Shown: positions 2,809-26,906 of the stretch, piece after piece | Position numbering within the stretch: the stretch's first letter is position 1 | Layout: the number at the start of each line of letters is the position of its first letter | Origin: Candidatus Bathyarchaeota archaeon | Lineage (GTDB): Archaea; Thermoproteota; Bathyarchaeia; Bathyarchaeales; Bathyarchaeaceae | Assembly: GCA_030615265.1 (NCBI GenBank) | Contig: JAUWZP010000006.1 | Coordinates: 1 to 40,490 of the forward strand | Length of the DNA: 40,490 nt | Reading direction: 5' to 3' | Notes under the pieces: model-generated | What the model saw: the letters and a program-made list of their open reading frames with translations, nothing else | Told to the model about the DNA's origin: nothing | Database searches by the model: none | Translations under genes and position numbers: made by a program

Positions 2809-2849
2809 CGCGTTCCCTCTTTTCAAAGGTTAGATTAACGCGACTCACA

Positions 2850-2917
2850 ACTTATTAATTGTTTAGGTAGCCTTTTCAAGTGTTTAAGTATGGTTTTTTG
2901 AAGATATATTTTCTTGG
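2850..2917 (-). repeat. Dispersed repeat, unit B copy 1
   Basis: About 65 bp (ATTGTTTAGGTAG ... TCAAGTGTTTAAGTATGG on the plus strand) recur at 4368-4435, 22078-22135 and, more diverged, 24871-24905. Read on the minus strand, all copies can encode a similar tail, KHLKKLPKQLI followed shortly by a stop, with synonymous differences between copies. This suggests descent from the 3' end of a gene. This copy lacks the unit-A stretch (GGGGAGTTTGCGGGG...) that adjoins the other copies. It abuts the relic integrase at 2921. Confidence 0.7.
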
Positions 2918-2920
2918 AAT

Positions 2921-3057
2921 CTATTTGCGTTTACGAAAGATTTCCACTTCGTTCATTTTGCAGACGTGTTCAAAGCCAGCATCCACAAGCTCACATGCTT
3001 CTTTAACCGTCTTGGCAACTCTTTCGGCAGCTCTATAGAAGTAGTAGCAGATTGCCT
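2921..3057 (-). pseudogene. Relic of tyrosine integrase C-terminus
   Basis: On the minus strand, 45 codons between an upstream in-frame stop (3058-3060) and a TAG (2921-2923) read ...RVAKTVKEACELVDAGFE, then HVCKMNEVEIFRKRK. This matches, from memory, the conserved tail that follows the catalytic tyrosine in many archaeal tyrosine recombinases (pattern VAKT-x2-EA-x2-L-x2-AGFEYV...LFRKRK). No start codon or catalytic core remains upstream, so this is a decayed fragment. It is not related in this region to the intact integrase at 12683. It lies directly against a copy of the dispersed repeat, as expected if an older element once sat here. Confidence 0.6.
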
Positions 3058-3440: not shown

Positions 3441-3584
3441 CCCACTCTCTGAAGCTTCCTTCTACCAAGAATTAAAAATTTTTAGACGGTAGCGGCGAGA
3501 ATTGAAACATATTTGGATACTAATAGCAATCGAATGTTGAAAACAAGCTTTTTTCCAAAGCTAAAAAAGAACTTAAGAAAACAG

Positions 3585-3650
3585 AAAAATGGGGGTTTTG
3601 CGATTGATATCCCCACTATGTCGGGGATTCAAATCCTACCCCGCCCGCCA
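3585..3650. repeat. Dispersed repeat, unit A variant with tRNA T-arm-like tail
   Basis: The stretch AAAAATGGGGGTTTTGCG, then ATATCCCCACTATG and a T-arm-like GGGGATTCAAATCC ending in CCCCGCCCGCCA, parallels the copy at 10985-11050. That copy has GCGGGGGACATCTCCACTG followed by GGGGGTTCAAGTCC. The TTCAAAT core resembles a tRNA T-loop and the end carries CCA, but the arms do not pair as a proper T-stem and no 5' tRNA half is present. It is therefore at most a tRNA-derived remnant. Confidence 0.4.
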
Positions 3651-4276: not shown

Positions 4277-4334
4277 AGATACTGCGTAACAAGTATTTGA
4301 AAGGCTCAATATCGTGGAGGTATACCGCGCGCGC

Positions 4335-4435
4335 AACTGGGAGTTTGCGGAGGGCATCTCCACTTCACTGCTTAATTAATTGTTTAGGTAGCTTTTTCAA
4401 GTGTTTAGGTATGGTTTCTTGAAGATGTTTCTTCT
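4335..4435. repeat. Dispersed repeat, intact A+B copy
   Basis: Unit A (ACTGGGAGTTTGCGGAGGGC then ATCTCCACTTCA) is directly followed by unit B (CTGCTTAATTAATTGTTTAG ...). This intact copy, with that at 24834-24905, shows what the sequence split by the mobile element looked like before insertion. On the minus strand unit A can form TGGAGA..TCCCCA hairpins, which in other copies are followed by T6 or more, as in a terminator. The rest of the 4277-4617 interval holds only a second unit-A piece and the guaAB promoter. Confidence 0.75.
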
Positions 4436-5579: not shown

Positions 5580-5611
5580 TTCATTCAATACGAGTATCAA
5601 GCAAGATGAAG
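5580..5611. repeat. 32-bp sequence shared with the mobile element (copy 1)
   Basis: TTCAT, two variable bases, then 25 bases starting AATACGAGTATCAAGCAAG and ending ATGAAG are repeated at 16622-16653 inside the integrated element, in the same orientation. The core ATACGAGTAT is an interrupted palindrome (ATAC-GA-GTAT). The neighbouring bases (GAACACAAAACTGAG here, AAACACCAAATATTGAG there) are also related. It sits 30 bases after guaAB. In the two places the sequence would be read in different frames, so the conservation is not protein-coding. Confidence 0.75.
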
Positions 5612-5731
5612 CAGAACACAAAACTGAGGCTAAATGGTATATGAAGCACATATATCGAAAACTGCAATATATCACGATTTGAAGGACGATATTTATAGAA
5701 AGAAACAACACACCCTTTTGATGATATGATC

Positions 5732-10912: not shown

Positions 10913-10984
10913 CTCTATCCCCTCATCTTTTAATTAAAGGAACTGGGCATTAAAATTTTGCCAGCATAGTTTTCGGCGATAAAA

Positions 10985-11050
10985 CGGAAAAAAAAGAGTT
11001 GCGGGGGACATCTCCACTGTGGAGGGGGTTCAAGTCCAGTCCAGGACGCA
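10985..11050. repeat. Dispersed repeat, unit A with T-arm-like tail
   Basis: GTTGCGGGGGACATCTCCAC, then TGTGGAGGGGGTTCAAGTCC and CAGTCCAGGACGCA, resembles the A copy at 3585-3650 and carries the same TTCAA-containing tail. It lies between two divergent genes (10912 and 11135). It looks like the 3' half of a tRNA but its stems do not close, so I do not call a tRNA. Confidence 0.45.
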
Positions 11051-11134
11051 GTGCATTGTATGCGCGTGGAATAACTTTTAAAGATAAAACTCTAAAGCTT
11101 CACGGAAACATTTGAAAGACAAATGGTGGTATAG

Positions 11135-11683
11135 ATGAAGCTTGAATTACAGGACTTCTACAAGCTGCTAGTTCGACCGACAGTTGTTATATCTACAATC
11201 TCACCTGGTGGAATCTCCAATGCTGCACCTTTCAGCTGGAACTCACCGATGGCTACAAAACCTAAGCCGATCTTCGGTTTCTCCTCAAACGTGAACCATG
11301 ACACATGGCGAAACATAAAGGAGAACAAAGAATTTGTGGTCAACATGGTCGGGGAGGACTTCGGCCCCCTAATGGAGATAATGGAGAAAGACTTTCCCTA
11401 TGAGGTTAGTGAGATTGAAGAATGCGGATTGACAGAGGTCAAGGCCATTCATATTAAGCCGCCACGAATCCAAGAAGCCTACGGTTGGCTGGAATGCAAA
11501 ATGACCAATTACGTATCACTCTCCGAGAGGAATGTCTGGATAATAGGCGAAGTACTGGATGCTGAGGTAAAGGATGAAGCTTTCGACGAGGTCGTAGACG
11601 TAGCTAAAGTGAAGCCTCTTAACCATATCTGGGGAGAAGCCTTCGTAACAGACATGAAGATAACAAGGTTCAAGAGAGCCTAA
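11135..11683 (+). CDS. Flavin reductase-like FMN-binding protein
   Basis: This is a 182-residue split-barrel flavoprotein of the flavin reductase/ferric-reductase-like family. Typical features are RPTVVISTISPGGISNAAPF near the N-terminus, the FMN-phosphate region FGFSSNVNHDTWRNIKENKE and FVVNMVGEDF. It probably binds FMN and passes electrons from a reduced cofactor to an unknown acceptor. Its neighbour on the other side encodes rubrerythrin, and in other anaerobes such flavoproteins often occur near rubrerythrin-type oxygen-defence genes. The start ATG follows GGTGGT. No second domain is fused. Confidence 0.85.
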   Translation: MKLELQDFYKLLVRPTVVISTISPGGISNAAPFSWNSPMATKPKPIFGFSSNVNHDTWRNIKENKEFVVNMVGEDFGPLMEIMEKDFPYEVSEIEECGLTEVKAIHIKPPRIQEAYGWLECKMTNYVSLSERNVWIIGEVLDAEVKDEAFDEVVDVAKVKPLNHIWGEAFVTDMKITRFKRA

Positions 11684-11738
11684 AAATCAGAACTCGTGGG
11701 CACCCATGTGTAGTATAGAATATTCCTAGCGAGCACAA

Positions 11739-11768
11739 AAAAATGGGGGGGTTTGCAGGAGATACATA
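11739..11768 (-). terminator. Repeat unit A copy downstream of the rubrerythrin operon
   Basis: On the minus strand this reads CTCCTGCAAACCCCCCCATT, then TTTTTGTGC, ending in a run of seven T. It lies about 75 bases after the stop of the last minus-strand frame (11843) and about 55 bases after the convergent flavin reductase gene. Its position and T-run fit transcription termination. It is a diverged copy of the unit A found elsewhere. Confidence 0.4.
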
Positions 11769-12523: not shown

Positions 12524-12584
12524 TGTATAAACTTCCTTTCAACTCTTTGGTGTAATAGGAGACATAAAAAGCGAGCGTGCAAAG

Positions 12585-12609
12585 ACAAAAAATGGGGAGT
12601 TTGCGGGGG
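12585..12609. other. attL: left half of the split dispersed repeat
   Basis: CAAAAAATGGGGAGTTTGCG, then GGGG, is the left half of repeat unit A and matches 24833-24856 and 4335-4352. The match stops at 12609, after CGGGGG (12604-12609). The rest of the unit (CATCTCCACTTCAATGCTTA...) is found at 22067 onward. I read this as the left attachment site of the element. Just inside it is CCGACAGATCG, which is similar to the inward-reading CCGACAAGTCGAT at the right end. Confidence 0.65.
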
Positions 12610-12682
12610 AAAAGCCGACAGATCGTAGGGTTATCTTCACCTTAAAATACGTGAATCCACTTTTAGAAGAGGTGAAACAAGC

Positions 12683-13846
12683 ATGAAAATAGATGACTTC
12701 TTAGACTACATTCGAGAAGCCAAGTCGAAGGCTACCTTCAAAAACTACACACAAGGCTTAAAGAAGTTTACAGCATGGTACGGAAAAGATGAAAATACGA
12801 TTTTGAAGGAAAGGTTTGAAGACTTACAAACTACAGATCAGAACAAGCGTAAACGGTTCAATAGAGAAATAGAGAAGTTTCATCGACACCTTAAGAATCT
12901 AGGACATCCACAAAACACGGCAGTAGCATACACGGAAGGCATAAGACAATTATTCAGATACTTCGACATGGACATTAAAAACTTGCCTAGTGAAGTCACA
13001 CGGAAAATTGTAACCGTAAAAGACTACACACCTAAAGTAAACGAATATCGAGATATGTTCAACTGTGGCAATGTCTTAGACAGAACAATAATTTCAATGG
13101 CTTTAGACTTAGCATGGCGTATAGGAGATTTCGTTAAGATCAGAAAAGACATGTTACCGAATCTAGAACAAGAGACACCGATACCCTTCGATTTGATAAC
13201 TGAGAAAGAAGAGGTAATTAGCAAATCCTTCTTAAGTGCTCAAACTGTGCAATTGCTTAAAACGTATCTGAAGACACTACCGAAAGAAAACCCTTACTTA
13301 TTCCATAACAGAAACGGTAGCCACTACGACCCTGAAGCCATAGGCAAAAGGCTTAAGGTGCTAGCGAAAAAAGCGAAGATTCACATACCGAAAGGGAAAA
13401 GGTTACGGTTTCATTGCTTCCGAAAGCGTTTCTTAAGTGAGTGTGCAAATCTGAAAATCGACATCAACACGGCTAAGATTATGGTAGGCAAAAGCGTTTC
13501 AAAAGACATGTTGACTTACCTAAGCGAGGTAGAACACAAAAAGGCTTTTGAAGAAGTACATGAAAGACTCCAGTTAACAGAGGTTAAGGCTGTGATAAAC
13601 GCTAAAGATTCTGAAATTGAAGCTTTAAACAAGCGAATCGGAGAACTAGAAATAATGAACAAAGGCTTAATCGAAATGCTAGCGAGAAATGCAAAAGCGT
13701 TAGGCATAGGTGGAGATTTAAGCGAAGGCACAGCTAAAGCAACCATAATAGAGCGCATTAAGGAACTAGGGAAACAAGCGGTAGAAAAGGAACAAGCAGA
13801 ATACAAGAAGCTAATCGAAAGCAACAACAATAACAACAACCACTAA
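12683..13846 (+). CDS. int: Tyrosine recombinase (integrase) of the element
   Basis: This is a site-specific recombinase of 387 residues that would insert and excise the element. The N-terminal part (to about residue 110) is a SAM-like core-binding domain (KATFKNYTQGLKKFTAWYG). The catalytic set is readable: Arg146 in DLAWRIGDF, a Lys in the beta-turn near 175-181, HCFR (His244, Arg247) and Tyr279 in DMLTYLSEVEH. After the tyrosine come about 100 residues of coiled coil and a run of asparagines, longer than in many integrases. The ATG follows AGAGGTG. It is the first gene inside the left end, reading inward. The gene appears intact. Confidence 0.92.
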   Translation: MKIDDFLDYIREAKSKATFKNYTQGLKKFTAWYGKDENTILKERFEDLQTTDQNKRKRFNREIEKFHRHLKNLGHPQNTAVAYTEGIRQLFRYFDMDIKNLPSEVTRKIVTVKDYTPKVNEYRDMFNCGNVLDRTIISMALDLAWRIGDFVKIRKDMLPNLEQETPIPFDLITEKEEVISKSFLSAQTVQLLKTYLKTLPKENPYLFHNRNGSHYDPEAIGKRLKVLAKKAKIHIPKGKRLRFHCFRKRFLSECANLKIDINTAKIMVGKSVSKDMLTYLSEVEHKKAFEEVHERLQLTEVKAVINAKDSEIEALNKRIGELEIMNKGLIEMLARNAKALGIGGDLSEGTAKATIIERIKELGKQAVEKEQAEYKKLIESNNNNNNH

Positions 13847-13945
13847 AACCCTTTTCCCTCTTTTCTTTTTGTTTGTTGTGTGCCAAAAATGGCTAGAGAA
13901 GCAAAGGTTAAATATGTGTCAAAATTGAATCTTTGAGGGATAAAG

Positions 13946-14125
13946 ATGGTTAAAGAAGGAAGAGGAAGATTGTTCAGAAGAGCAGATGGCAAGTACCTAA
14001 TCTATGTTCCATTAGCTTTAGCAGAAGACAGCATGTTTCCATTCAAAACTGATTCCTCTATAAAGCTGAAGATATCTTTCAAGATTGGAGACAACAAAGT
14101 AATCATAGAAAGCTGGAAAGAATAG
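13946..14125 (+). CDS. Small 59-aa protein, possibly AbrB-like
   Basis: The frame MVKEGRGRLFRRADGKYLIY..., ending ..KISFKIGDNKVIIESWKE, has alternating short strands and a Pro-Leu turn. This resembles small archaeal proteins with a GRLF+RxDGKYxIYxP..LAEDSMFPF core that I remember as common in Bathyarchaeia and Thermococci, perhaps with a swapped-hairpin DNA-binding fold. GAGGG lies seven bases before the ATG. It follows the integrase by 99 bases. I am confident it is a gene but not of its role; a small regulator is a guess. Confidence 0.6.
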   Translation: MVKEGRGRLFRRADGKYLIYVPLALAEDSMFPFKTDSSIKLKISFKIGDNKVIIESWKE

Positions 14126-14445
14126 AAAGAAGCGTAGTTTCTGTCGCCTACCCCAAAACCTACAGTCAAAATATGTCCGTTTTCGTACATATCCATTCCA
14201 CACATGCACAACTAGATAACTACACGGTTTTGTCGGGTTATCCATTACAAACCATACAAGTTACCATGCGAAAGCAGCTATTAAGCCACCACACCCACCA
14301 AACAACCCCACCCCCATTTCAAAATCGGAAAAACTACCCCTAGAAGTCCCTATTTCAAACCTTATTTCGTGTTTTGGAACCTATAGAAGCATGTGGGACT
14401 ACAGAAAGGAAAAAGATTTTATCTTATTGTGATCACTTAGGTATT
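14126..14445. other. Gene-free 320-base stretch inside the element
   Basis: I find no gene with a plausible start. The stretch contains C-rich plus-strand sequence (CCACCACACCCACCAAACAA, then CCCCACCCCC at about 14286-14315). It ends with AAAAAGATTTTATCTTATTG (14409-14428), a TATA-like stretch reading toward the inverted repeat at 14455. It could hold an origin or control region, but nothing proves it. Confidence 0.4.
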
Positions 14446-14562
14446 TGTTAATGTAGTCGGCGCGGTGGAGCACGATAATCACGCAACTGTGAAGCTGGAT
14501 TCCACCGACATTGGCCTCACTGGTGCGCTTTACGGTTCGGCACTCCACCGCTCTACCGACTT
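14446..14562 (+). ncRNA. Candidate structured RNA or regulatory hairpin
   Basis: AGTCGG-C-GCGGTGGAG (14455-14470) pairs with CTCCACCGC-TCTA-CCGACT (14543-14561), giving a stem of 15 base pairs broken by one small internal loop and enclosing 72 bases. A TATA-like box at about 14414-14424 would start plus-strand transcription near 14446. Nothing in it folds as a tRNA: there is no valid T-arm or acceptor stem. On the minus strand it directly follows the stop of the winged-helix gene (14563), so it could alternatively be that operon's end signal. I see no protein-coding frame that explains it. Confidence 0.35.
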
Positions 14563-15447
14563 CTATTCGGCATTGTTTGTCTCAGCTCTTTTCTCAGGAT
14601 ATTTTTCAACAACTCTGTTGATCAAAATCTCGCCAGCTAGAGTTAATTCCCATTCTCCTGAAGGGTTTTTCTCGATAGGGGCAGGACTCCAGTTGCTTCT
14701 AGTTAGATTGTAACAAGTGTCATAGATCCTTCTCTTATTCATATTAAGAGTGCTCGCAATTTCATCTGTAGACAATGTCTTTTGTCCAGCAAGTGTCTTT
14801 AGGATTCCGAAGAACAATTGTGATTTAATTAACCGCTCTACCATCTCATCAATTTTTTCGTAGGATTTCGACAGGTTATCCACGCGCATTCGGAAGCTTT
14901 GTACACCTTGTACAAGTTTTTGAATAGCTTCTTGCTTTCTCAAAGTGCCTTTCACTATGATTTTATCTGATAAAATCGTTACATCGTTAAAGCGCAGAGG
15001 GTGTTCTTGCCTTAACAAATCGCATATCGTGTCTAGTACATCATCTCCTAGATCCATACCCTCAAGGAAGGGGAAAGCAGTTTCTGAGTTTTCTAGTGTC
15101 GGATTTTCTAATTCGGCTGGAAATGGCAAGTTGCGCATTTTTTCCAAAAGTTCTGTCTTAAGTCGGTTCAATTGATTGAGCAACATCTCAGATTTTTGTC
15201 GGTAATCCTCAATCTTTTCCTCGATTTTCCTAGTTTTTGACTGCTTTTTAGTCTGACCATAGAGAACCTCCATAGCAGTCTCCATCTGCCGTTCTTCTTC
15301 AGCTACTTTTGATAACTCCTCCATTTTGACTTGCGTATTCTTCTCACAGTTATTCAAATCTGATTTAATGCGGATGTACTCCACTGCCTTCACTTGGAAC
15401 GTTTGAATGTGAGATCTTATTTGTTCTTTCTGGTCTTCTGTAAGCAT
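14563..15447 (-). CDS. Coiled-coil plus winged-helix protein, paralogue 1
   Basis: This 294-residue protein has residues 1-115 as a long charged coiled coil, about 120-200 as a small alpha/beta domain (LRFNDVTILSDKIIVKGTLR), and about 212-280 as a winged helix (ILKTLAGQKTLSTDEIAST, LNMNKRRIYDTCYNLTR, ending with the wing GEWELTLAGEIL). The upstream gene has the same three-part design and alignable sequence, so the pair arose by duplication. The ATG follows AGGTGAA, which overlaps the end of the upstream gene, with 2 bases between genes, so they are co-translated. I know no family with this layout. DNA-bound scaffolding, segregation or replication initiation are guesses. Confidence 0.75.
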   Translation of the reverse strand: MLTEDQKEQIRSHIQTFQVKAVEYIRIKSDLNNCEKNTQVKMEELSKVAEEERQMETAMEVLYGQTKKQSKTRKIEEKIEDYRQKSEMLLNQLNRLKTELLEKMRNLPFPAELENPTLENSETAFPFLEGMDLGDDVLDTICDLLRQEHPLRFNDVTILSDKIIVKGTLRKQEAIQKLVQGVQSFRMRVDNLSKSYEKIDEMVERLIKSQLFFGILKTLAGQKTLSTDEIASTLNMNKRRIYDTCYNLTRSNWSPAPIEKNPSGEWELTLAGEILINRVVEKYPEKRAETNNAE

Positions 15448-15449
15448 TG

Positions 15450-16424
15450 TCAGTTCACCTCTTTTCCATAAATGACCTTTTTTATTTCATTATTGTTTAG
15501 ATATTGGTTGAGAGTAGACTTTCGAGGTTTTTCCTCTTTCTTCTCAACGGGAATTTCAACAGAAACCTCTTGTTTAGACTTTTTTGCAGTTTGCTTGCCT
15601 TTAAGGTACTTATCCTGATATCGCACCCATACAAGAGAGCCGAGAAAACTAAGTTCATATGTTCCAGTTGACACTCGAATAAAGGGAAATTTCTCTTTCA
15701 GAACGTTTTCTGCATTTGTGAAGAAGTTTCGAACCCTCTTCTGCCCCTTAGTTGTTTCAAGACCTAAATGGGAGTATAAATCTTGGTTTGTGATTCTTTT
15801 ACTTCCTTTGATTGCCTCCCAAATATCTCGGTAAGGACTATCATAGAAATAGTCAGCTACATCTTCAACGATAGGATCTTTTTCTTCAAGGGCAATCCGT
15901 GCTAAGCGGCCAATGTTGCTTTGTAAAGCCTCCAAAACTTTAGCAATCTCAGTTAGATCTTTGGCGTTTGTCACAACAACTTTATCTCCGTGAAGCTCTA
16001 CGTTGTCTAGTTTCAAAGGTATGTCCAAACTCAAAATAGAAGCAATAAGTCTTACAGCATTATCGCAAGGATTTCCTTTGAAAGTTATGGATGTTTTCTT
16101 ATCTACTTTTGGAAGTTCACTCGAAAGACTAAAAGATACATTTTTCAACCCCTCCAAAACCTCTTTTTCTAGCTTTTCAATCTTCTTCTGAAAAACTTCT
16201 GCCTCTTTCTTAACCTTCTCTAGTTCATCTACTCCCTTTTCACCTTCATATGCTTCATCACTCAATTTTGCAATTGTCTTTAGATATTGAACTTCTTCAC
16301 TTCTCTTTTTGGCCTTGATCTCAAACTCATATATTTCATTCTGTTTAACTTTCAACTGTTGTTTGAGTGAGTTTATCTCTTCACATTTTTCTTCAATGTC
16401 CGATAGCTTCATACAAACACTCAC
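15450..16424 (-). CDS. Coiled-coil plus winged-helix protein, paralogue 2
   Basis: This 324-residue protein starts with coiled coil (residues 5-100). Next comes a small domain aligned with its neighbour's (PLKLDNVELHGDKVVVTNAK against PLRFNDVTILSDKIIVKGTL), then a winged helix (YRDIWEAIKGSKRITNQDL ... VSTGTYELSFLGSLVW), then a Lys/Glu-rich linker and a short helical end. A TATA-like CTTTTTAAAG on the minus strand at about 16447-16459 lies some 25-30 bases before the ATG, predicting a leaderless mRNA. It is the first gene of a two-gene unit with the protein at 14563. The extra C-terminal linker, absent from the partner, suggests that the two have diverged in role, possibly as a heterodimer. 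Confidence 0.75.
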   Translation of the reverse strand: MSVCMKLSDIEEKCEEINSLKQQLKVKQNEIYEFEIKAKKRSEEVQYLKTIAKLSDEAYEGEKGVDELEKVKKEAEVFQKKIEKLEKEVLEGLKNVSFSLSSELPKVDKKTSITFKGNPCDNAVRLIASILSLDIPLKLDNVELHGDKVVVTNAKDLTEIAKVLEALQSNIGRLARIALEEKDPIVEDVADYFYDSPYRDIWEAIKGSKRITNQDLYSHLGLETTKGQKRVRNFFTNAENVLKEKFPFIRVSTGTYELSFLGSLVWVRYQDKYLKGKQTAKKSKQEVSVEIPVEKKEEKPRKSTLNQYLNNNEIKKVIYGKEVN

Positions 16425-16446
16425 ACTAACATACTAACATACAACG

Positions 16447-16460
16447 CTTTAAAAAGCTTT
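16447..16460. promoter_or_regulatory. TATA-like promoter box, possibly bidirectional
   Basis: The A/T-rich near-palindrome GCTTTAAAAAGCTTTT lies 23-36 bases before the ATG of the leftward paralogue gene (16424). That is the distance expected for an archaeal TATA box with a leaderless transcript. On the other strand it is 45-55 bases before the small frame at 16503. Confidence 0.45.
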
Positions 16461-16502
16461 TGGCGAAACATCTTTGTATGCATGCATGCCTATTACTTGG
16501 TA

Positions 16503-16604
16503 ATGCCGCTTGTCCTATTGCTCGGTTTCATCTATGAGCCATTAATAGGGTTCATACTTCTGGTTGCTTTACTTGTTGTTCTCATCATATGGCTGGATAA
16601 CTAG
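16503..16604 (+). CDS. 33-aa single-pass membrane microprotein (putative)
   Basis: An ATG frame of 33 codons, MPLVLLLGFIYEPLIGFILL.., ending LVVLIIWLDN and TAG, is almost entirely hydrophobic with one acidic residue in the middle and an Asp-Asn end. It would form one membrane helix or a hairpin. There is no strong ribosome site, but a TATA-like box lies 45-55 bases upstream. Archaeal viruses commonly carry such short membrane proteins. It is too short to be certain. The 848-base interval 16425-17272 otherwise holds a shared 32-bp repeat and a degenerate duplication. Confidence 0.4.
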   Translation: MPLVLLLGFIYEPLIGFILLVALLVVLIIWLDN

Positions 16605-16621
16605 AGAACTCGTAGATTGTC

Positions 16622-16653
16622 TTCATAGAATACGAGTATCAAGCAAGATGAAG
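16622..16653. repeat. 32-bp sequence shared with chromosome near guaAB (copy 2)
   Basis: This is the partner of 5580-5611: 30 of 32 bases are identical, with 25 consecutive matches from 16629. Here CTTCAT (16621-16626) and ATGAAG (16648-16653) also form an inverted repeat around the ATAC-GA-GTAT palindrome, so it could be a protein-binding site or hairpin. It lies 17 bases past the 33-aa frame. Confidence 0.75.
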
Positions 16654-16869
16654 TAAACACCAAATATTGAGACTCGGAATCAGAATGCCCATTTTTTTCT
16701 TCGGGGTCGTGCCGTTTGGTGTCGGGTGTTTGCTGCTTGGGTTGTGTCTGGGTAGCTTGCTTGATCTCGGTTCCTAGTTGTGTCGGTGCTACCGTACACA
16801 CTATGAATGAGACTTGTATGGTGCTTGATTTCGGTGTGGTCGGTAAATCCTTTGTGAGTCTTATGGAAG

Positions 16870-17245
16870 CGTTACGCTGGGGTAGAGGGGGTGTTTATAC
16901 TTCTTCCTAATCATACTTTTACCTTTATACCCTACTACAGAGTAACTCGCCCATAGATTACCATCGATTCTAGCCCATTGTAGTAACCAATCCACATATC
17001 TCGTTGCAATTTTGTATTTGATGGCACGGTTCGTTCGGCTGGGAGTGATAGCGGTGTTTTACGACTATTATTTCTATTGTCGATGGCAAAATTAGCGAAG
17101 GTAGGGGTGGGGGTGTATTACTGTTTCTAATCATACTTTTACCTTTATACCCTACTACAGTTATATTTTCCCATTGTTCCCCATCGATTCTAGCCCATTG
17201 TAGTAACCCATCTACATATCTCATTGTAATTTTAGTAATGGGTGT
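16870..17245 (-). repeat. Two degenerate direct repeats, 220-bp period, once coding
   Basis: Sequence at 16872-17030 recurs at 17092-17245 with a period of 220. The best part is the 16 bases TAATCATACTTTTACC (16908 and 17128), followed by the shared CATCGATTCTAGCCCATTGT. On the minus strand both copies read RYVD.LLQWARIDG..W....VVGYKGKSMIR, with synonymous changes between copies. The right copy is in frame with the nuclease gene just past its stop (17273). The left copy is in a different frame and lacks an ATG. I read them as a duplicated, decaying C-terminal module. An 84-codon frame (16970-17224) spans both but changes meaning in the left copy. Confidence 0.6.
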
Positions 17246-17272
17246 AGAGGCTACGGCTTTGTTTAGTAGTGC

Positions 17273-17893
17273 TCACTCTTTAAGGATTTTGAAGAGTTCG
17301 TATGCTGGATGCCTTTCGGTTACTTCTGTGAGTGGGGAGTAGTAGCATGGGGCGTAGAAGCATGGGTATTCGTTGTTTGCGATGGGTAGTTTTTCGACTT
17401 CTTCCTTTGTTAGGAATCCTATTATGTAGGCTTTGGTTAATTCTTTGTCAATTAGTTTGATTGAAACGGTTATGTCTGAAGCTGTCCATTCAGCAACTTT
17501 TATCGTTAAGTTTTTGTAGCGTTCGGTGGGTTGTGTGGTTTTCACCTGTATTGTTTTTCCTTTACATTCAAAATCGTGTGGTCTTCTCAATTCGTGTGGG
17601 TACATTGGTTCTGCATACTGATAGTCTATTTTTAGTTCGTAGAGTGTTGCTTTGAAGATTTGTTCGCCGAGCAAACCGAAAAACATGGTTTCTTTTTGGT
17701 TAGGCTTCCAGTCGCGTGAGATGGCTTCATCTTTGTAGCGTTGCATTAAGAGGTCTGTGTCTTTTTTGGCCATTAAGAGGATTTCTTTATCGATCTTGTA
17801 AACGGCATAGCCTAAGGTTTCTCTTATCTCAACTAGTCCTAATGGTAATACTTTAAAGAAGTCCTTAGTATCGAATTCCTTTATTTGGCTCAT
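17273..17893 (-). CDS. Predicted PD-(D/E)XK-type nuclease
   Basis: This 206-residue protein bears a restriction-endonuclease-like core: a helix Glu in GLLGEQIFKATL (Glu77), then HDFECKGKTIQVKTT with Asp107 and the Q-V-K variant (Gln116, Lys118) of the (D/E)-x-K catalytic motif. This fold serves Holliday-junction resolvases, repair nucleases and restriction enzymes, and the cellular partner here is unknown. I place the start at 17893, which follows GAGGAGG, not at the in-frame ATG at 17941. It sits in the leftward operon of the element. Directly after its stop, in frame, is the RYVD..LLQWARIDG module described at 16870-17245, as if the protein once had a longer C-terminus. Confidence 0.65.
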   Translation of the reverse strand: MSQIKEFDTKDFFKVLPLGLVEIRETLGYAVYKIDKEILLMAKKDTDLLMQRYKDEAISRDWKPNQKETMFFGLLGEQIFKATLYELKIDYQYAEPMYPHELRRPHDFECKGKTIQVKTTQPTERYKNLTIKVAEWTASDITVSIKLIDKELTKAYIIGFLTKEEVEKLPIANNEYPCFYAPCYYSPLTEVTERHPAYELFKILKE

Positions 17894-17944
17894 TCGTTGT
17901 TTGCCTCCTCTTCTGTGTGCCACATGCATGCATGCAAGCAATGG

Positions 17945-18610
17945 CTAAAGCCCTATCGTGATTGGTCTGGAAAGGTATGTTGCTATTAGTCGGTTCTGTT
18001 CCTGTAGTTCTGAATCGTTAAGTAAGAAGCCGTTTCTAACCGCTTGAACCCATTGCATGCGCTCACTTTTGGGTATAGGTAAGGGTTCAAAAACGCTGAG
18101 CTGGTAGCCACTTTGAGAGAGTTCGACAACTAGGTTGTTCCAGCTATTTATCATACTTCCTAAGGCTGTGAGGTCTGTAGGATAAAGCAACATTTCTTCT
18201 AGATTGGTGTGTTTCTTTATGATGTTTTTTCCATGCTGGATTTGAGGTAACAGTTCTGCCAATTCTCTGAGCCACCTACGGTTCTGGTCTTGGTCTGACA
18301 TCTCTTCCATTGGATTCTGTTTGAAGTGCACTTTTCCTTCTGCTTGGATGCGTTTGGCGTATGGCTCTATGACACTGAGTATTCTCGCTTCTGTTTCTGC
18401 TTCGATTAAACGTGCATCATGGCTTTCGCTGGGAATTGTCTGTCTAACTTCCTCTCTCACTTTTTCGACTACTTTCGGACATAGTCTCCGTCTGATGTTT
18501 TCTACGATTTCACTGAGTTCTAGGCTTTGTTGAAATTCCGTGGTTGCTAGTCTTCGTTTTTCCCCTTGGTAGGCTTCTTCGACTTTATTCCAATAACTCA
18601 TGTTTATCAC
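17945..18610 (-). CDS. Helical protein of unknown function
   Basis: This 221-residue protein is rich in Glu, Arg and Leu and predicted to be all-alpha, with a possible coiled-coil zone (residues 30-75). It has no cysteines beyond one, no membrane segment and no motif I recognise. A GTG at 18610 overlaps the upstream stop (GTGA), and an ATG three codons later (18601) is equally possible. Either way it is translationally coupled to the gene before it. It is one of three unrecognised genes, followed by the nuclease. Confidence 0.65.
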   Translation of the reverse strand: MINMSYWNKVEEAYQGEKRRLATTEFQQSLELSEIVENIRRRLCPKVVEKVREEVRQTIPSESHDARLIEAETEARILSVIEPYAKRIQAEGKVHFKQNPMEEMSDQDQNRRWLRELAELLPQIQHGKNIIKKHTNLEEMLLYPTDLTALGSMINSWNNLVVELSQSGYQLSVFEPLPIPKSERMQWVQAVRNGFLLNDSELQEQNRLIATYLSRPITIGL

Positions 18611-19128
18611 TTATCCTTTGTTTTTCGGAAAATTTTGTTTTGTCGGATTCTAGAAATGAAATTTAAGGTTGCATTCAAATTGTTTAATGGTAAATCGCTG
18701 CTTTTGTAGGAGTATGTCATGTTTGAATTTGAGTTTAGTCTTCGGAATTCTTCATCGTTTTTCTCCATTTCAGCTAATAAAGCGTGCAATACCTTTGCTT
18801 GTCTGATGCCTTCGCTTGTTAAGGTTTCTGCTGGGAGTTTTCGGATTTTTGCGATTGTTTCCTCGATTGTATTGTGAATCTTGGCTCTTTTTTCAAGTGG
18901 CTTCTTTAATTTGGCTTTTTGTTTAGCCTTTTGTCTTTCTACATATACCTCTTTTTCCTCTATTCTATCCGCAACTTTCCTTAGTCTTTTTGAGCCTACA
19001 TCGAAAAGAATGTCGCTGAGTTTTTCGTTTGGTAGTCTGGTCATTTCACCTAGTAGAGTAGGCATGTTTTGGATTCTTGGGTCTGATGGGATTGCTTTCT
19101 TTTTGAAGATCCTGGATACGTTTGGCAT
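18607..19128 (-). CDS. Basic helical protein of unknown function
   Basis: This 173-residue protein has a strongly basic, Lys/Ala-rich helix in the middle (RQKAKQKAKLKKPLEKRAK, about residues 64-82) and an Asn/Ser-rich flexible part near the end. It resembles small nucleic-acid-binding or structural proteins by composition only. Its ATG directly abuts the stop of the 57-aa gene (TAA-ATG), and AAGGAG lies in the end of that gene. It overlaps the next gene by 4 bases, so all are one operon. I do not recognise a family. Confidence 0.65.
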   Translation of the reverse strand: MPNVSRIFKKKAIPSDPRIQNMPTLLGEMTRLPNEKLSDILFDVGSKRLRKVADRIEEKEVYVERQKAKQKAKLKKPLEKRAKIHNTIEETIAKIRKLPAETLTSEGIRQAKVLHALLAEMEKNDEEFRRLNSNSNMTYSYKSSDLPLNNLNATLNFISRIRQNKIFRKTKDK

Positions 19129-19302
19129 TTACTTGATCTCCTTCAGAATTTTCTCCAAGTCTTCCACTAAGATTGCTTTGTCGCTGTGGGCTTTGTCTCG
19201 TGCTAGGTCTCCGAGAAGGTTAGCTTTTGCTCGGATTTTTCTAAGGAGTTTCTTTTTGCTGATTTTTTGGTCTTTCTTTTTTCGCCGAAACATTTTTTTC
19301 AT
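19129..19302 (-). CDS. 57-aa highly basic protein, first gene of leftward operon
   Basis: The frame MKKMFRRKKKDQKISKKKLL ... ends EDLEKILKEIK. The first 25 residues are mostly Lys/Arg, and the rest forms an amphipathic helix. The ATG has a strong ribosome site (AAGGAGAC), and the stop TAA is immediately followed by the next gene's ATG, so it is very likely translated. Proteins like this may coat DNA or bind RNA. This is an inference from charge alone. Confidence 0.65.
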   Translation of the reverse strand: MKKMFRRKKKDQKISKKKLLRKIRAKANLLGDLARDKAHSDKAILVEDLEKILKEIK

Positions 19303-19322
19303 GTCTCCTTGTAACTAAAAAT

Positions 19323-19403
19323 GAAGCCCCCTCGCCCAAACAGGAGAAGGGATGAAGGGGCTTCGAAGGGACAGCAGTCTCTTCACTGCCACTAAAGAGT
19401 TGC
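19323..19403. promoter_or_regulatory. Two consecutive hairpins upstream of the leftward operon
   Basis: GAAGCCCC (19323-19330) pairs perfectly with GGGGCTTC (19357-19364) around 26 bases. AGCA-GT-CTCTT (19372-19382) then pairs with AAGAG-T-TGCT (19394-19403) around 11 bases. They lie in the 138-base gap between the ribbon-helix-helix gene (stop 19441) and the operon start (19302), and would be in any leftward transcript reading through from it. They may act as an attenuator, terminator or processing site. No T-run follows the first stem on either strand. Confidence 0.5.
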
Positions 19404-19440
19404 TTGTGGGTTTCTGGTGTGCGGTCAAAATCAGCGTGAA

Positions 19441-19698
19441 TCATGGATTTTCTCTCCTATTAAATTCGGTTGCTCTCTTTTCGAAAAGTTTAATCAAACT
19501 TTCAAGCTTGGTCTCGTATTCTCTAAATGGGTTTTCTGAGGATTCATTCGAAAGTAAACATTCGATTTCAGAGGGCAATGTCCGAATCAAAAGATTGTTT
19601 AAGATGTTATCTCGACTTTTACCTGACACAAAACTGAAAAGCTTTAAAGCTTCGTAAACATCGCAATCAAGTTTAATGTGAGCGTCCTTGCGTTCCAT
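19441..19698 (-). CDS. Ribbon-helix-helix type DNA-binding protein
   Basis: This 85-residue protein has an N-terminus (AHIKLDCDVYEALKLFSFVS, then GKSRDNILNNLLIRTL) with the pattern of a ribbon-helix-helix repressor: a short basic strand, helix, Gly/Ser turn, helix. The C-terminal 35 residues are a charged coiled coil. It is divergently transcribed from the zinc-ribbon gene at 19762 through a shared promoter that has an operator-like inverted repeat (19744-19759). Self-regulation and control of the neighbouring genes are therefore likely, though inferred. Confidence 0.65.
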   Translation of the reverse strand: MERKDAHIKLDCDVYEALKLFSFVSGKSRDNILNNLLIRTLPSEIECLLSNESSENPFREYETKLESLIKLFEKRATEFNRRENP

Positions 19699-19728
19699 TG
19701 TACATCGAATGTATTTGGGTTCACAGAA

Positions 19729-19760
19729 CTTATAAAGGACAAATTACTCTAGAGAGTAAC
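19729..19760. promoter_or_regulatory. Divergent promoter: palindromic TATA box and operator-like repeat
   Basis: CTTATAAAG (19729-19737) reads as CTTTATAAG on the other strand, so one box can serve both directions. It lies 25 bases from the GTG at 19762 and 31 bases from the ATG at 19698, which predicts leaderless transcripts both ways. Between the box and the rightward start is TTACTC-TAGA-GAGTAA (19744-19759), a perfect 6+6 inverted repeat placed where a bound repressor would block RNA polymerase. Confidence 0.6.
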
Positions 19761-19761
19761 G

Positions 19762-20253
19762 GTGAATGTGTTGAGAAGCTACGGGTTTCTTTCTAAAGGT
19801 GAACGGGATTATCTGAGTCGTAGGAAAAAGGTTTCAAAAACGCATGGTAGGGTTTTAGAACATCGTATTCGTGAATCTGCTCATCAGGCTGTTCAGGATT
19901 TTGAGCGTTTTTTGGGGTGGCTTGAAAAGTCGGGTAAGAAGCCTACTTGGTACACAGAATCGAGCAAGAAGCCTTATGAACATGCAAAGAAGTTCTTTGC
20001 TCTTAGAGGTGGGCAGTTAGAAGTTACCACTAAGACTGTAGTTGAAGGAAAAGAGAAAAAAAGGTTAAGAAAAAAACGGATTAAAGTTTACACATTTGAC
20101 ATTCACAATGCTCCGTGTCCCCATTGTGGATTGAAGTCGCTTATCATTTTCTGTAGAAATTGTAAGGCTTCGTTCACTCATGGGAAAATGGGTTCTAAGA
20201 ATGAATTTGTTTCTACGGGAGCAACTACATCGATACAGATTAAGAAGGATTGA
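19762..20253 (+). CDS. Zinc-ribbon protein of unknown function
   Basis: This 163-residue, very basic protein has a helical N-terminal region (RIRESAHQAVQDFERFLGWL) and then CPHCGLKSLIIFCRNC (two CxxC pairs 10 residues apart) near residues 119-134, a probable zinc ribbon. The first residues are RSYGFLSKGERDYLSRRKK. The start is the GTG at 19762, suited to a leaderless mRNA from the TATA box at 19729-19737. It is the first gene to the right of the divergent promoter. It is likely a DNA- or RNA-binding protein; the family is not recognised. Confidence 0.65.
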   Translation: MNVLRSYGFLSKGERDYLSRRKKVSKTHGRVLEHRIRESAHQAVQDFERFLGWLEKSGKKPTWYTESSKKPYEHAKKFFALRGGQLEVTTKTVVEGKEKKRLRKKRIKVYTFDIHNAPCPHCGLKSLIIFCRNCKASFTHGKMGSKNEFVSTGATTSIQIKKD

Positions 20254-20353
20254 ACTATATCCCTAATCTAAGAATTATATACTGAAAGTTTTCTTGCTGG
20301 TTAGAGTAAAAGCAATAAAAGAGAAACGCACAATTCAATCTGGTTGTAAAATA

Positions 20354-20566
20354 ATGGTTGAGTCTAGGCAATATAAGGTAGTTCAAGCGGAATGTCCTAT
20401 ATGTGGAAAAAGGTTAGAAGGTTTATCAGAAAAACATTGGATGCACAACTTCAGAATACACTTACGACTAGCTCAAAGGCACATGTTACCGTTTAGAGAA
20501 ATTGACCGAATAACAAAAACTGTAAGCCCTTCGTTCCGTACTGTCACCAAAACGAAATATTACTGA
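20354..20566 (+). CDS. Small C2H2-type zinc-finger protein
   Basis: A 70-residue protein from the ATG at 20354 contains CPICGKRLEGLSEKHWMHNF, then RIHLRLAQRH. Its CxxC pair and two histidines spaced by six residues could form a C2H2-like finger with a long connecting loop. Short single-finger proteins are common in archaeal viruses and plasmids. A TTG 20 codons upstream (20294) is an alternative start, but the intervening residues look non-conserved. An ATTATATA box at about 20272-20279 suggests its own promoter. Confidence 0.55.
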   Translation: MVESRQYKVVQAECPICGKRLEGLSEKHWMHNFRIHLRLAQRHMLPFREIDRITKTVSPSFRTVTKTKYY

Positions 20567-20714
20567 AGTAGTTTCATCCTACCTTTCGTTCTCACATACT
20601 CCTCATACTACTCCTTATTCTGCTAATACTACTATTCAGAAGCTTTAAATCTGAAAAGAGACTTACTTTAAGCGTTATAACCCTAAGGGGGTGTGAAAAA
20701 CGGAAAAAACTGCA

Positions 20715-20861
20715 ATGGTTCTGAATGATGTTACAAGCCGATTAGCTCATGTGCTTAGAATGTCTCCTACGAAACTGATTGAGAAGGAAGTGTGTGAAGT
20801 TCAGCAAATCTTGTTAGAGCATCTATTAGACCTAGAACCGAATCTTGACTTGGATGTCTGA
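20715..20861 (+). CDS. 48-aa putative element protein
   Basis: The frame MVLNDVTSRLAHVLRMSPTK ... LLEHLLDLEPNLDLDV, stop TGA, looks like one or two amphipathic helices with an acidic end. It lies between the zinc-finger gene and the ATPase gene in the same direction. The ribosome site is weak (GGAAAA, 10 bases before). A TTATAA box at about 20675 could drive it. Natural composition and position support a gene, but shortness limits confidence. Confidence 0.4.
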   Translation: MVLNDVTSRLAHVLRMSPTKLIEKEVCEVQQILLEHLLDLEPNLDLDV

Positions 20862-20973
20862 GAAAAAGCCTTTGGGATAAAGGTTTCTCCGAAAAAGGGG
20901 CGTAAAATGGGCTTAAAAACGTTTATAAGCCTTGGTTTCCCATTATTTACTGTTAAAATGTGGGAGATTAAGA

Positions 20974-22020
20974 ATGACAACACCGACAAGATCGGAAATT
21001 AGAGAACTTGCACAGCAAAAAGAGAGTGAATGTAATGGAAGTCTACCTTCTATAACTTGCGAAGATAGCGAACTTAGAGAAAACGGATCGTGGTTTGAAG
21101 CTAGAGATCAGCTTATGCGAAATGAAGAGAGAAGCCAAGTCTTAAACTATCTTGAAGAAATGGCATGTGAGAACGGGTTCAGGCTTGTTCCGAAAGCACG
21201 ATTTGAAGGGCAACAAAACTTCATAGACTTGAAAACGTTGAATGAAGAAATATTGAAGTTTGGTGGCTTGTTTGTTGTTGCGAATAAGGGCTGTGGCAAA
21301 ACGAATAGTCTTATGCAGATCGCTAGAGAGTTAAGAAAAGACGCTAGAAATCGAGTAATCGTTTTCGAAACTTTTCCCTTGTGGATGCACACATTCGACA
21401 GTATGCCGTATTGTTACATTGAAGATTCTGACGTGATTAAAACTGATAACGGATTCGAAAGCGTAAGGCATGAAGACGTGAAAAGACTTCTAAGCCAAAA
21501 TAAAGACTTACTGATCTGTCTAGGCATTGAAGACATTGACCGACTTAGTTATTTTGTCTCTAAGATTATCTATGACCTCTACAGAAAACGATATTTGAAG
21601 GCTTACAAGTACGGATTAGAAAGCATAAAAGAAAACGTAATCTTCGTATGCGAAGAGTCTCAAAACTTATTCGATTCTAGCGTCTTAAACAAAACCGTGT
21701 TTCGTAGACTTAGAAAAATTTACAGCGAATCGAGAAACTTCAAAATACACTATCTTATGGCTTCTCAGCGAATTCAAGATTTGAATACTAAGATCAGAGC
21801 TAGAGCTAGGCTTCTAGTAGGACGTGTGAGCCTAGATGATTATGAGCTAAAGATTTCTAGGCTACTCAGAAATAGCCAATATAGAAGAGAAGTGCTAGAG
21901 TTTGAAGTCGGAAAATTCCTTTATGCCGACACAGATTCAATGATTCGCTTCGACAAATTTGAGCAATGCGGCAAGCCTTATGAATGTGTCTACGACATTG
22001 AAAAGGTGTTAGCGCAATGA
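20974..22020 (+). CDS. HerA/FtsK-like P-loop ATPase of the element
   Basis: This 348-residue ATPase has an unusual Walker A, ANKGCGKTN (residues 103-111), preceded by GGLFVV. Walker B is NVIFVCEES (221-229) with the Glu-Glu of the HerA/FtsK group, and the sensor glutamine is in MASQR (262-266). Such enzymes pump DNA, for packaging into virions, for transfer or in end resection. The size fits viral packaging ATPases, but I see no capsid gene to settle it. I choose the ATG at 20974, which follows GGGAG, over the TTG at 20932. TTTATAAG at 20919-20926 is its likely TATA box. It ends 40 bases from the right attachment site. Confidence 0.7.
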   Translation: MTTPTRSEIRELAQQKESECNGSLPSITCEDSELRENGSWFEARDQLMRNEERSQVLNYLEEMACENGFRLVPKARFEGQQNFIDLKTLNEEILKFGGLFVVANKGCGKTNSLMQIARELRKDARNRVIVFETFPLWMHTFDSMPYCYIEDSDVIKTDNGFESVRHEDVKRLLSQNKDLLICLGIEDIDRLSYFVSKIIYDLYRKRYLKAYKYGLESIKENVIFVCEESQNLFDSSVLNKTVFRRLRKIYSESRNFKIHYLMASQRIQDLNTKIRARARLLVGRVSLDDYELKISRLLRNSQYRREVLEFEVGKFLYADTDSMIRFDKFEQCGKPYECVYDIEKVLAQ

Positions 22021-22059
22021 GAACCCCTAAACCGATAACTCTACTTTTTATCGACTTGT

Positions 22060-22135
22060 CGGGGGGCATCTCCACTTCAATGCTTAATTAATTGCTTAGG
22101 CAGCTTTTTCAAGTGTTTAAGTATGGTTTTTTGAG
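22060..22135. other. attR and right half of the split dispersed repeat
   Basis: CGGGGGG (22060-22066), then CATCTCCACTTCAATGCTTA and ATTAATTGCTTAGG.., is the right part of unit A followed by a full unit B. It matches 4353-4435 and 24855-24905. Sequence left of 22060 (TTATCGACTTGT) has no similarity to the repeat, marking the end of the element. TCGACTTGTCGG is close to the reverse complement of CCGACAGATCG just inside the left end, as expected for recombinase arm sites. Confidence 0.65.
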
Positions 22136-24699: not shown

Positions 24700-24833
24700 C
24701 AGAAGTTGACAAGAGGTTCCTTATATTTCCAATTTTTAGAACAACGCGCACGCACTAATGGTAATGTTGATAACCGTACTTTTAGGCTAAATGGCTTAGG
24801 CAAACTGCTTCAAAACACCTATTTGTTGTTTAC

Positions 24834-24905
24834 CAAAAAATGGGAAGTTTGCGGGGAGCATCTCCACTTCATTGCTTATTTAATTGTTTAGGTAACTTTT
24901 TCCAA
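24834..24905. repeat. Dispersed repeat, intact A+B copy
   Basis: CAAAAAATGGGAAGTTTGCG, then GGGAGCATCTCCACTTCATT and GCTTATTTAATTGTTTAGG, is an uninterrupted copy that aligns across the junction split by the element. It lies in the 380-base gene-free interval 24700-25079. Apart from it, that interval holds the topoisomerase promoter (AAGTTTAAG near 25024-25032) and nothing else I can identify. Unit B degrades after about 24900. Confidence 0.75.
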
Positions 24906-25079: not shown

Positions 25080-26906
25080 ATGAAGCAGTTACACCACAAC
25101 GGCGTCCTAGTACCAATCCAACACGAAGGAAAAGATCTCACCATCAAGGTGAAAGACACAAAGATAAAGCTAACGGCGGAGCAGGAGGAAATGGCTCTCG
25201 CCTGGGCAAAAAAAGTAGGAACCCCATACGTCGAAGACCCCGTCTTCGCCAAGAACTTCCACCGTGACTTCTCAAAGAAGCTCGGCATCCACGTCAAACC
25301 CGGCGACATCGACTACTCCGAAATCCTCACTCTCGTCGAAAAGGAGCGAGAATGGAAGACAAACCTTTCAAAAGAAGAGAAGAAAAAGCTGGCAGCGCAG
25401 AGGAAAACCCAGAGAGAAGCCAACAAGGAGCGCTACGGATACGCCTGGGTTGACGGCGTCCAGATGGAGGTAGCCAACTATGCTGTCGAGCCCAGCTCTA
25501 TCTTCATGGGCCGAGGGAAACACCCTTTAAGGGGTAGCTGGAAGGAGGGATCTCGAAGGGAAGAAATCGAGCTTAACCTATCACCGGATGCTCCTAGGCC
25601 GCAGGGCAAATGGAAGGTCATAGTTTGGCAGCCCGACGTTATGTGGATCGCACGATGGCGAGATAAACTCACCGGTAAGACGAAATACGTGTGGTTTTCC
25701 GACTCCAGCATCTTAAAGCAGAGAAAGGACATGGAGAAGTTTGAAAAAGCGATGGAGTTCCGCCGGAACCTTCCACGGGTTCAAAGACACATCTGGGAGA
25801 ACATTGACGCCGATGATCTAAAACGGAGAAAGACAGCGACCGTCTGTTTCCTCATTGACAAATTGAAAATCAGGGTCGGCGACGAGAAGGACCCAGACGA
25901 GGCGGACACCGTCGGCGCTTCAACTCTTCGATCGGAGCATATTCGCTCCAACGGCGATGGCACTGTAACCTTCAACTTCCTCGGAAAGGACTCTGTGCCT
26001 CATGTCTTCACCGTCGAACTCCCAGCTAATGTCATCAGAAACCTCAAGGAGTTCGCAGCGAACGCGAAATCCACCCTTTTCGACGGCGTCGGCTCAAGAC
26101 ATGTGAGCGAATTCCTCGATGAGGTGATGACCGGGCTCTCAGCAAAGGTCTTCCGCACCTACTATGCGTCTGAAGCCGTTGAGATGAAGCTGGAAAAGAC
26201 TCCTGTCAAACGTGAAGACTCTGAATACGTGAAGAAACATGTCGCCGCTATGGCGAACCTCGAAGCCGCCAAGGTCTGCAATCACAAGCGCACAATACCC
26301 AAGACTTGGCAGTCATCTTTAGAAAAGAAGAAGGATCGCCTCAAGACTCTACACGACCGAGCGAAGACGGCTCAAGTTAAGCTGAAGCAGAAAGCCAAGG
26401 ACCGGGAAGAGAGATACGGGGAGAGGCTGAGAAAACAGGAGGAAAGGCTGAAGTTGATGAAGGGGAAATTGAAGGCTTATCAGCGACAACTCGCAGAGAA
26501 GAAGCAACAAGGTAAAGACGCCCCCGCTCTGAAGAAGCGCATTAGCCGTCAGCGACAGGCCGTGGCGCGTCAAAAGCAACGTCTCAAGGAGCTGAAGATT
26601 AAGCATGTAGAGCAGATGAAGAAGCTAGGACTGAGGCTGGAGAGTCGGAGGCAACGTGACAAAGCGGCGATAGAGAAACAGAGGCTCAGAATAGAGATCC
26701 AGAAGGAGACCCGTGACTACAACCTCGTGACATCCTTGAAGAGCTACATTGACCCCCGAATCTACTACAAATGGGGAAAACAAGTCGACTACGACTGGAA
26801 AAGATACTACCCGAAGACCCTTCAGAAGAAGTTCAGCTGGGTTGAAACTGATGAGACGTCTCCAGAACGGCCAGAAGAGTTGCCTCCTCACATTCGAAAC
26901 ACATAG
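25080..26906 (+). CDS. top1: DNA topoisomerase IB, eukaryote type
   Basis: This enzyme relaxes DNA supercoils by transient single-strand cutting with a 3'-phosphotyrosine link. At 608 residues it has all catalytic landmarks of eukaryotic Top1: the Arg in KLKIRVGDEKD (with ADTVGASTLRSEHI after it), the Lys in FLGKDSVPH, the Arg in VFRTYYAS, the His in NHKRTIPKTW, and Tyr556 in LKSYIDPRIYYKW. A long coiled-coil linker (about residues 410-540) separates core and C-terminal domain, as in eukaryotes. Known archaeal carriers are Thaumarchaeota, Caldiarchaeum and some Bathyarchaeia. Codons here end in C or G more often than in neighbouring genes. The start follows AGGCGG. Confidence 0.95.
   Translation: MKQLHHNGVLVPIQHEGKDLTIKVKDTKIKLTAEQEEMALAWAKKVGTPYVEDPVFAKNFHRDFSKKLGIHVKPGDIDYSEILTLVEKEREWKTNLSKEEKKKLAAQRKTQREANKERYGYAWVDGVQMEVANYAVEPSSIFMGRGKHPLRGSWKEGSRREEIELNLSPDAPRPQGKWKVIVWQPDVMWIARWRDKLTGKTKYVWFSDSSILKQRKDMEKFEKAMEFRRNLPRVQRHIWENIDADDLKRRKTATVCFLIDKLKIRVGDEKDPDEADTVGASTLRSEHIRSNGDGTVTFNFLGKDSVPHVFTVELPANVIRNLKEFAANAKSTLFDGVGSRHVSEFLDEVMTGLSAKVFRTYYASEAVEMKLEKTPVKREDSEYVKKHVAAMANLEAAKVCNHKRTIPKTWQSSLEKKKDRLKTLHDRAKTAQVKLKQKAKDREERYGERLRKQEERLKLMKGKLKAYQRQLAEKKQQGKDAPALKKRISRQRQAVARQKQRLKELKIKHVEQMKKLGLRLESRRQRDKAAIEKQRLRIEIQKETRDYNLVTSLKSYIDPRIYYKWGKQVDYDWKRYYPKTLQKKFSWVETDETSPERPEELPPHIRNT

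Follow-up and report, generated by a model that had tools for sequence, protein, structure and literature searches.

An integrative element in Bathyarchaeota and a dif-like site family that probably bounds gene cassettes

What does an integrase-bearing element interrupt when both of its ends lie in a dispersed repeat? This question is raised by a stretch of 40,490 nucleotides from Candidatus Bathyarchaeota archaeon (contig JAUWZP010000006.1, positions 1 to 40,490; hereafter the window), which is contig C89 of a 1.86-Mb genome. An earlier note on this DNA had proposed that such a repeat was divided at a common core by an element of about 9.46 kb carrying an integrase, and the two halves were indeed found to rebuild one site. 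The element has probably integrated at one site of a large dif-like family that bounds small gene cassettes in Bathyarchaeia, the cassettes being exchanged at the cores in an integron-like manner. The first reading is thereby partly supported; the nature of the repeat as a cassette-bounding family of recombination sites, about 29% of which are joined to tRNA 3' ends, had been missed.

Element borders, rebuilt target site and integrase

The element is delimited by two copies of the core CGGGGG, each of which adjoins one half of the repeat on its outer side and a putative arm of the original attP site on its inner side:

12604..22059, + strand: integrated element, core to core, 9,456 bp; CGGGGG at both ends, site rebuilt by joining the flanks
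12581..12609, + strand: left half of the target site, consisting of an A-run, the arm GGGGAGTTTG and the core CGGGGG (12604-12609); 28.2 bits with the site model
22060..22078, + strand: right half of the target site, consisting of the core CGGGGG (22060-22065) and GCATCTCCAC; 15.9 bits with the site model, tail common with 4341-4427
12610..12619, + strand: inferred left attP arm, AAAAGCCGAC, by direct reading; resembles the CCGAA/TCGC arms beside the core in several homologues
22050..22059, + strand: inferred right attP arm, ATCGACTTGT, by direct reading; inverted match of 7/10 to the left arm
12683..13846, + strand: tyrosine integrase of 387 amino acids (PF00589, 1.7e-9); start codon 73 bp past the left core, gene reading away from the junction

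In agreement with the earlier note, the left half ends at 12609, the right half resumes past the element (from 22060) with CGGGGG at both junctions, and intact copies of the repeat lie outside the element, at 4341-4427 and from 24845 onward. Joining position 12603 to 22060 creates a site of 44.7 bits, the top score in the window, compared with 22.4 and 14.3 bits for the left and right halves alone and 39.5 bits for the best intact site (24848) under the same scoring. The model used for this comparison was built on 25 sequences, including the intact sites of the window and excluding the two halves. In ten shuffles of the window the best match reached 7.1 with the corresponding matrix, versus 11.7-46.2 for the sites of the window.

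The inner flanks had been described as inverted recombinase-like sites. Inverted arms are present, but their register was wrong: the best pairing is symmetric about the core, with AAAAGCCGAC on the left and ACAAGTCGAT on the right, read inward, which are alike at 7/10 positions. Accordingly arranged, the integrase of a plasmid- or virus-like element would have recombined an attP site, ATCGACTTGT-CGGGGG-AAAAGCCGAC, with the chromosomal sequence GGGGAGTTTG-CGGGGG-GCATCTCCAC across the 6-bp core. No tRNA gene was found in the window, and neither end of the element has one. The target is a repeat, as had been claimed, but a target other than a tRNA gene is not unusual in itself, since intergenic attB sites have been reported in archaea (PMC8371274). 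An empty locus with rubrerythrin beside a beta-propeller gene, which the earlier note had suggested looking for, did not turn up, as no rubrerythrin adjoined any of the propeller loci examined in relatives.

The catalytic set of the integrase (R146, K175, H244, R247, K270 and Y279) is complete and invariant in eight sequences of its subfamily, and the closest named relative is encoded on contig JAOUPS010000055.1, labelled Candidatus Bathyarchaeota. The gene is intact with the core upstream of its start, so that the SSV-type arrangement, with att inside a split integrase gene, does not apply. Eight of nine close homologues possess a CGGGRG core near their start, compared with 0 of 17 distant tyrosine integrases (Fisher p = 6e-6); in seven of the eight it is located 23-93 bp upstream of the start codon and in one 25 bp inside the frame. 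Most of the eight carry a half-site beside the core, and either half of the host site, left or right, may adjoin the integrase. Since the core adjoins the start in close and not in distant homologues, the integrase subfamily thus uses these sites as targets. A second element with an integrase of the same subfamily (G020:C182) displays the core at both ends. A core abutting the integrase start might suggest an attI platform for cassette insertion, but in the window element a junction stands at the far end as well, which fits an integrated circle. The C-terminus of the integrase is a poly-asparagine tail (13820-13846; L005:10405-10430), which reads NNNNNNH and NNNNNH and is kept between homologues 55% identical.

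The site family, its arrays and its cassettes

In aligned copies the conserved part of the repeat spans about 26 bp, preceded by the A-run, and consists of the arm GGGGAGTTTG, the core CGGGGG and the arm AYATCTCCAC. The ten bases on each side form imperfect inverted repeats around the 6-bp core (10-6-10), with GGGGAGTTTG and GTGGAGATRT agreeing at most positions, and this core is the insertion point of the element. The earlier note had counted a long right tail as part of the repeat; such a tail of about 70 bp is common to some copies only, while conservation across genomes is limited to the roughly 26 bp and the A-run. Rfam gave no match to the repeat in the window. Some sites elsewhere contain two cores with few bases between them, for example TTTG-CGGGAG-AAGT-CGGGAG-ATATCTCC (L157:3750-3792, L159:11416-11462 and 7591-7632, L116:2564-2606, L170:8811-8764, and 309122-309167, 1165417-1165459 and 32177-32227 in G017:C1); these are possibly remnants of elements whose ends begin with AA and end with GT.

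A strict 23-base pattern yielded 36 matches in 27 genomes, comprising the genome of the window and 26 family members, and a single match when read backwards. With a model built from sequence only, at least 49 copies were counted in the window's own genome, 44 in G017, 33 in G023 and one to two in each of G008-G010. Across the class, 150 of 257 genomes carry the site, many of them with 20 or more copies. Among 398 sampled genomes of the phylum, the site is almost restricted to Bathyarchaeia; two outside genomes, both of one genus, have 12 and 6 copies. The genomes are apparently mostly metagenome bins, the loci were picked for carrying sites, gene calls are crude open reading frame (ORF) calls, and model E-values come from a shortened calibration. 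The papers searched contained no description of this site family, which is not proof that none exists.

Fewer copies had been named in the window than are present. Those named do exist, but nine copies lie on the + strand, beginning at 3579, 4334, 4494, 10058, 10984, 11735 (partial), 12581 (left half), 22060 (right half) and 24832. Besides the two halves at the element borders, the array comprises:

3579..3617, + strand: cassette site, with a tail resembling a tRNA 3' end at about 3623-3650, GGGGATTCAAATCCTACCCCGCCCGCCA
4334..4366, + strand: intact cassette site, 31.7 bits
4494..4528, + strand: weaker cassette site, 19.2 bits
10058..10093, + strand: cassette site, 35.6 bits
10124..10912, - strand: creatininase gene, alone between two sites (PF02633, 1.6e-62)
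10984..11020, + strand: cassette site, 31.9 bits, followed by a tail resembling a tRNA T-arm from about 11023 (11023-11050)
11028..11764, + strand: flavin-reductase cassette (gene 11135-11683), alone between two sites; 91% identity to G001:C61
11735..11764, + strand: cassette site, left half and core only, 16.2 bits
11951..12523, - strand: rubrerythrin gene, alone between two sites (PF02915, 3.8e-33)
24832..24870, + strand: rightmost cassette site of the array, 40.0 bits; homology to G014 begins inside it

In G014, a genome of the same genus, contig C29 matches the window from 24835 up to 30088 or beyond. G014 aligns again at 1907-3021, so that the array between 3021 and the site at 24848 is variable. 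The conserved right flank includes a gene for a eukaryote-type topoisomerase IB (25080-26906).

Neighboring sites point in the same direction. Among sites less than 3 kb apart, 74 of 78 pairs share their orientation (51/54 in the first 52 loci and 23/24 in 40 loci fetched later). This coherence is not explained by gene direction, since the genes flanking the sites lie on either strand. Exactly one ORF is found in 28 of the 70 same-orientation intervals. Site gaps below 5 kb number 11 each in G017 and G182, compared with 4.0 and 2.9 expected, with the sites spread over the chromosome; the arrangement is one of many small arrays and not of one platform. Recombination at the cores would add, remove and exchange cassettes, resulting in same-orientation arrays such as that at 3.6-24.9 kb of the window.

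Individual cassettes recur in several places, and homology breaks at or near the cores. The flavin-reductase cassette and its counterpart in another genus (G001:C61) share 670 of 737 bases, with homology reaching from the T-loop just past one site to the next core. A cassette labelled nitroreductase-like, from sequence alone, occurs in G000:C44, in G000:C10 (94%) and in G023:C23 (77%), with homology starting in the left half of the site. Moreover, G020 and G142, genomes of different families, have a 300-bp cassette in common at 85% identity, flanked by two sites in each. Over all pairs, 23 of 128 homology endpoints lie within 40 bp of a core, compared with a mean of 3.6 and a maximum of 13 for shifted positions in 1000 trials.

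Occupied and unoccupied forms were found at one locus. Over a 317-bp flank, G000:C4 and G023:C28 are 99% identical (315/317), and similarity stops at CGGGGGA. Beyond this point G000:C4 continues into the core and right half (unoccupied) and G023:C28 into an integrase element (occupied), while the last part of the same flank leads to a third sequence in G003:C69, so that one left flank is joined to three right sides at the same core. The bins of G023:C28 and G000:C4 belong to different genera, which points to a misbinned contig or a recent transfer. If G023:C28 is misbinned, the comparison of the two sequences still stands, but they are near-strains. The G003:C69 contig breaks off at both ends 54-55 nt away from a core, which would follow from branching of the assembly graph at these places. 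Among the best sites, 12 of 55 are located within 600 bp of a contig end, compared with 4.4 expected.

tRNA 3' ends and further genes of the element

A T-loop motif follows 49 of 170 sites (about 29%), in 41 of the 49 exactly 11 or 12 nt after TCTCC; upstream of sites it was found once in 77. Comparison with the tRNAs of the own genome gave 23 matches downstream of sites on the same strand, all of them to 3' ends, most starting from near the T-loop and together representing eight isotypes. The longest exact matches, to tRNAs for Ile, Pro and Leu, extend over 24-25 bases. The same comparison found no tRNA 5' halves upstream of sites. Integrase-adjacent sites at two further loci (L005 and L019) carry the same tRNA-like tail. 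Since the match mostly starts at the T-loop, the sequences suggest that this is where the junction between site and tRNA is made. A reading as split tRNAs was rejected: all the tRNA pieces found are 3' ends, no 5' half adjoins the A-run, and an invariant arm could not pair with anticodon stems that differ.

Tentatively, Bathyarchaeia might possess an integron-like cassette system of their own, with a site unrelated to attC and with new cassettes born at tRNA genes. An element end would recombine at the T-loop of a tRNA gene, which would place its site beside the tRNA 3' end and the host gene that follows; a second site would then turn this host gene into a movable cassette. Capture of this kind, if true, would explain the ordinary genes that follow tRNA ends. 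At one locus in G001 (L122:6394-6493) Rfam matched the pyrrolysine insertion sequence of mttB with 51.7 bits (cut-off 38).

The element carries, in addition to the integrase:

14563-15447 and 15450-16424, - strand: two adjacent paralogous coiled-coil proteins, 22% identical to each other (E 2e-10), with weak Pfam matches only; the first has a weak winged-helix match
17273-17941, 17945-18610 and 18607-19128, - strand: three orphan proteins not confidently assigned to any family of Pfam, PHROGs, NCBIfam or PADLOC
20932..22020, + strand: P-loop ATPase, weakly HerA-like (PADLOC HerA 5e-6; PHROG 1.8e-5)

A family B DNA polymerase, suggested for 20932-22020 by the motif YADTDS, was dropped, as the protein displays a P-loop and weak HerA similarity and has no polymerase match. 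A viral identity of the element was likewise not adopted, the integrase being without a relative in IMG/VR and the matches to packaging proteins being weak only. Among solved structures there was no relative of the ATPase and nothing useful for the integrase. The element also contains two 125-bp direct repeats (16889-17013 and 17109-17233), which are 82% alike. Another short dispersed repeat, TATCAAGCAAGATGAAGCAGAACAC, lies inside the element at 16622-16664, outside it at 5580-5622 and near position 700 of L071, and a similar repeat precedes a site in G000:C98.

Alternative explanations and known systems

It is unlikely that the sites are attachment-site scars of many elements with the same core, some of them in tRNA genes, and that no cassettes are shuffled. 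Such an origin would agree with the share of sites joined to a tRNA 3' end, with the half-sites adjoining integrases of the subfamily and with the dispersal of the sites; however, single ordinary metabolic genes between two full sites, the presence of the same cassette in three arrays and the conservation of the left half in copies of different context are left unexplained. Rather doubtful is the alternative that XerA, the recombinase of the host, moves the cassettes as dif-type modules, with integrative elements exploiting the same sites. The arm-6-arm layout is that of dif (PMC8371274), and site-rich genomes without a close relative of the window integrase would be accommodated. Yet genomes with 9-12 tyrosine recombinase matches can be nearly free of sites, and dif modules alternate in orientation, which the sites described here do not. 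The mostly intergenic position of the repeat and its A-run, a T-run on the other strand, would also suit a regulatory or transcription-termination sequence hit by the element by chance. This is highly improbable, given an orientation that is coherent between neighbors and unrelated to gene strand, homology that breaks at the core and an integrase subfamily tied to it; a promoter or terminator role was rejected, as the strands of flanking genes are mixed.

Several observations weigh against exchange of cassettes at the cores as the preferred explanation. No excision products or circular junctions were seen, the evidence being assembled sequence, and several site-rich genomes have no close relative of the window integrase. 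Occupied and unoccupied forms are available at one locus and for the left junction only, on a contig that may be misbinned. Moreover, the sites are spread genome-wide in small clusters instead of one platform, and some intervals contain several genes, one of them coding for a subunit of GMP synthase, which the cell should hardly be able to spare; for this reason not every interval need be mobile. On balance, the sequences show the split site, the site family, the common orientation, the shared cassettes, the breaks at cores and the link between the integrase subfamily and the core; from these we infer that recombination at the cores moves cassettes, that an enzyme of the kind of this integrase carries it out and that the process still takes place. 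We conclude that the attB of the element belongs to an integron-like cassette system distinct from attC/IntI.

Integrons are the textbook platform for gene capture and shuffling. If true, a separate cassette system that is widespread in a largely uncultured class and relies on simple sites would represent an independent solution to gene capture and could explain some of the patchiness in what genes these genomes contain. The site motif offers a handle for finding cassettes in any metagenome, and through the constant association with tRNA 3' ends the origin of cassettes becomes testable by sequence.

Archaeal integrons reported so far possess attC sites of the bacterial kind (PMC9668308). Integrons, including the archaeal ones (PMC9668308), resemble the present system in their arrays of short cassettes with sites one way round (74/78 here) and in a tyrosine recombinase gene whose start abuts the recombining site and which reads away from it. 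In contrast to integrons, the sites described here are short and without attC-like folding, cassette genes lie on either strand, and clusters are small and scattered. For 50 sites of 80 nt the mean fold z-scores were -0.24 and -0.22 on the two strands, as judged by folding only, without an attC model. The NCBIfam matches to the integrase included no dedicated integron-integrase (IntI) model; the best match is the archaeal XerA model ('site-specific tyrosine recombinase/integron integrase') with 64 bits at a cut-off of 220. Because its site lacks an attC-like fold and the models run do not identify its integrase as IntI, the system functions in the manner of an integron without belonging to the integrons.

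In dif sites a 6-nt spacer separates two inverted repeats of 11 nt (PMC8371274), a layout close to that of the sites described here. The dif/pdif modules of Acinetobacter plasmids (PMC13141974, PMC6449649) are similar in that short sites with inverted arms and a 6-bp spacer bound one or few genes. However, those modules alternate in orientation and are found mainly on plasmids, whereas the sites described here have the same orientation as their neighbors (74:4), differ in sequence and are chromosomal in archaea. With archaeal elements of the pNOB8 type, in which the integrase is intact (reviewed in PMC8371274), the window element shares an integrase near one end, a core direct repeat at both ends and the R-K-H-R-K-Y set. 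It differs from them in its target, which is a cassette site present in many copies instead of a single tRNA gene, and in the limited similarity of attP to this target outside the 6-bp core.

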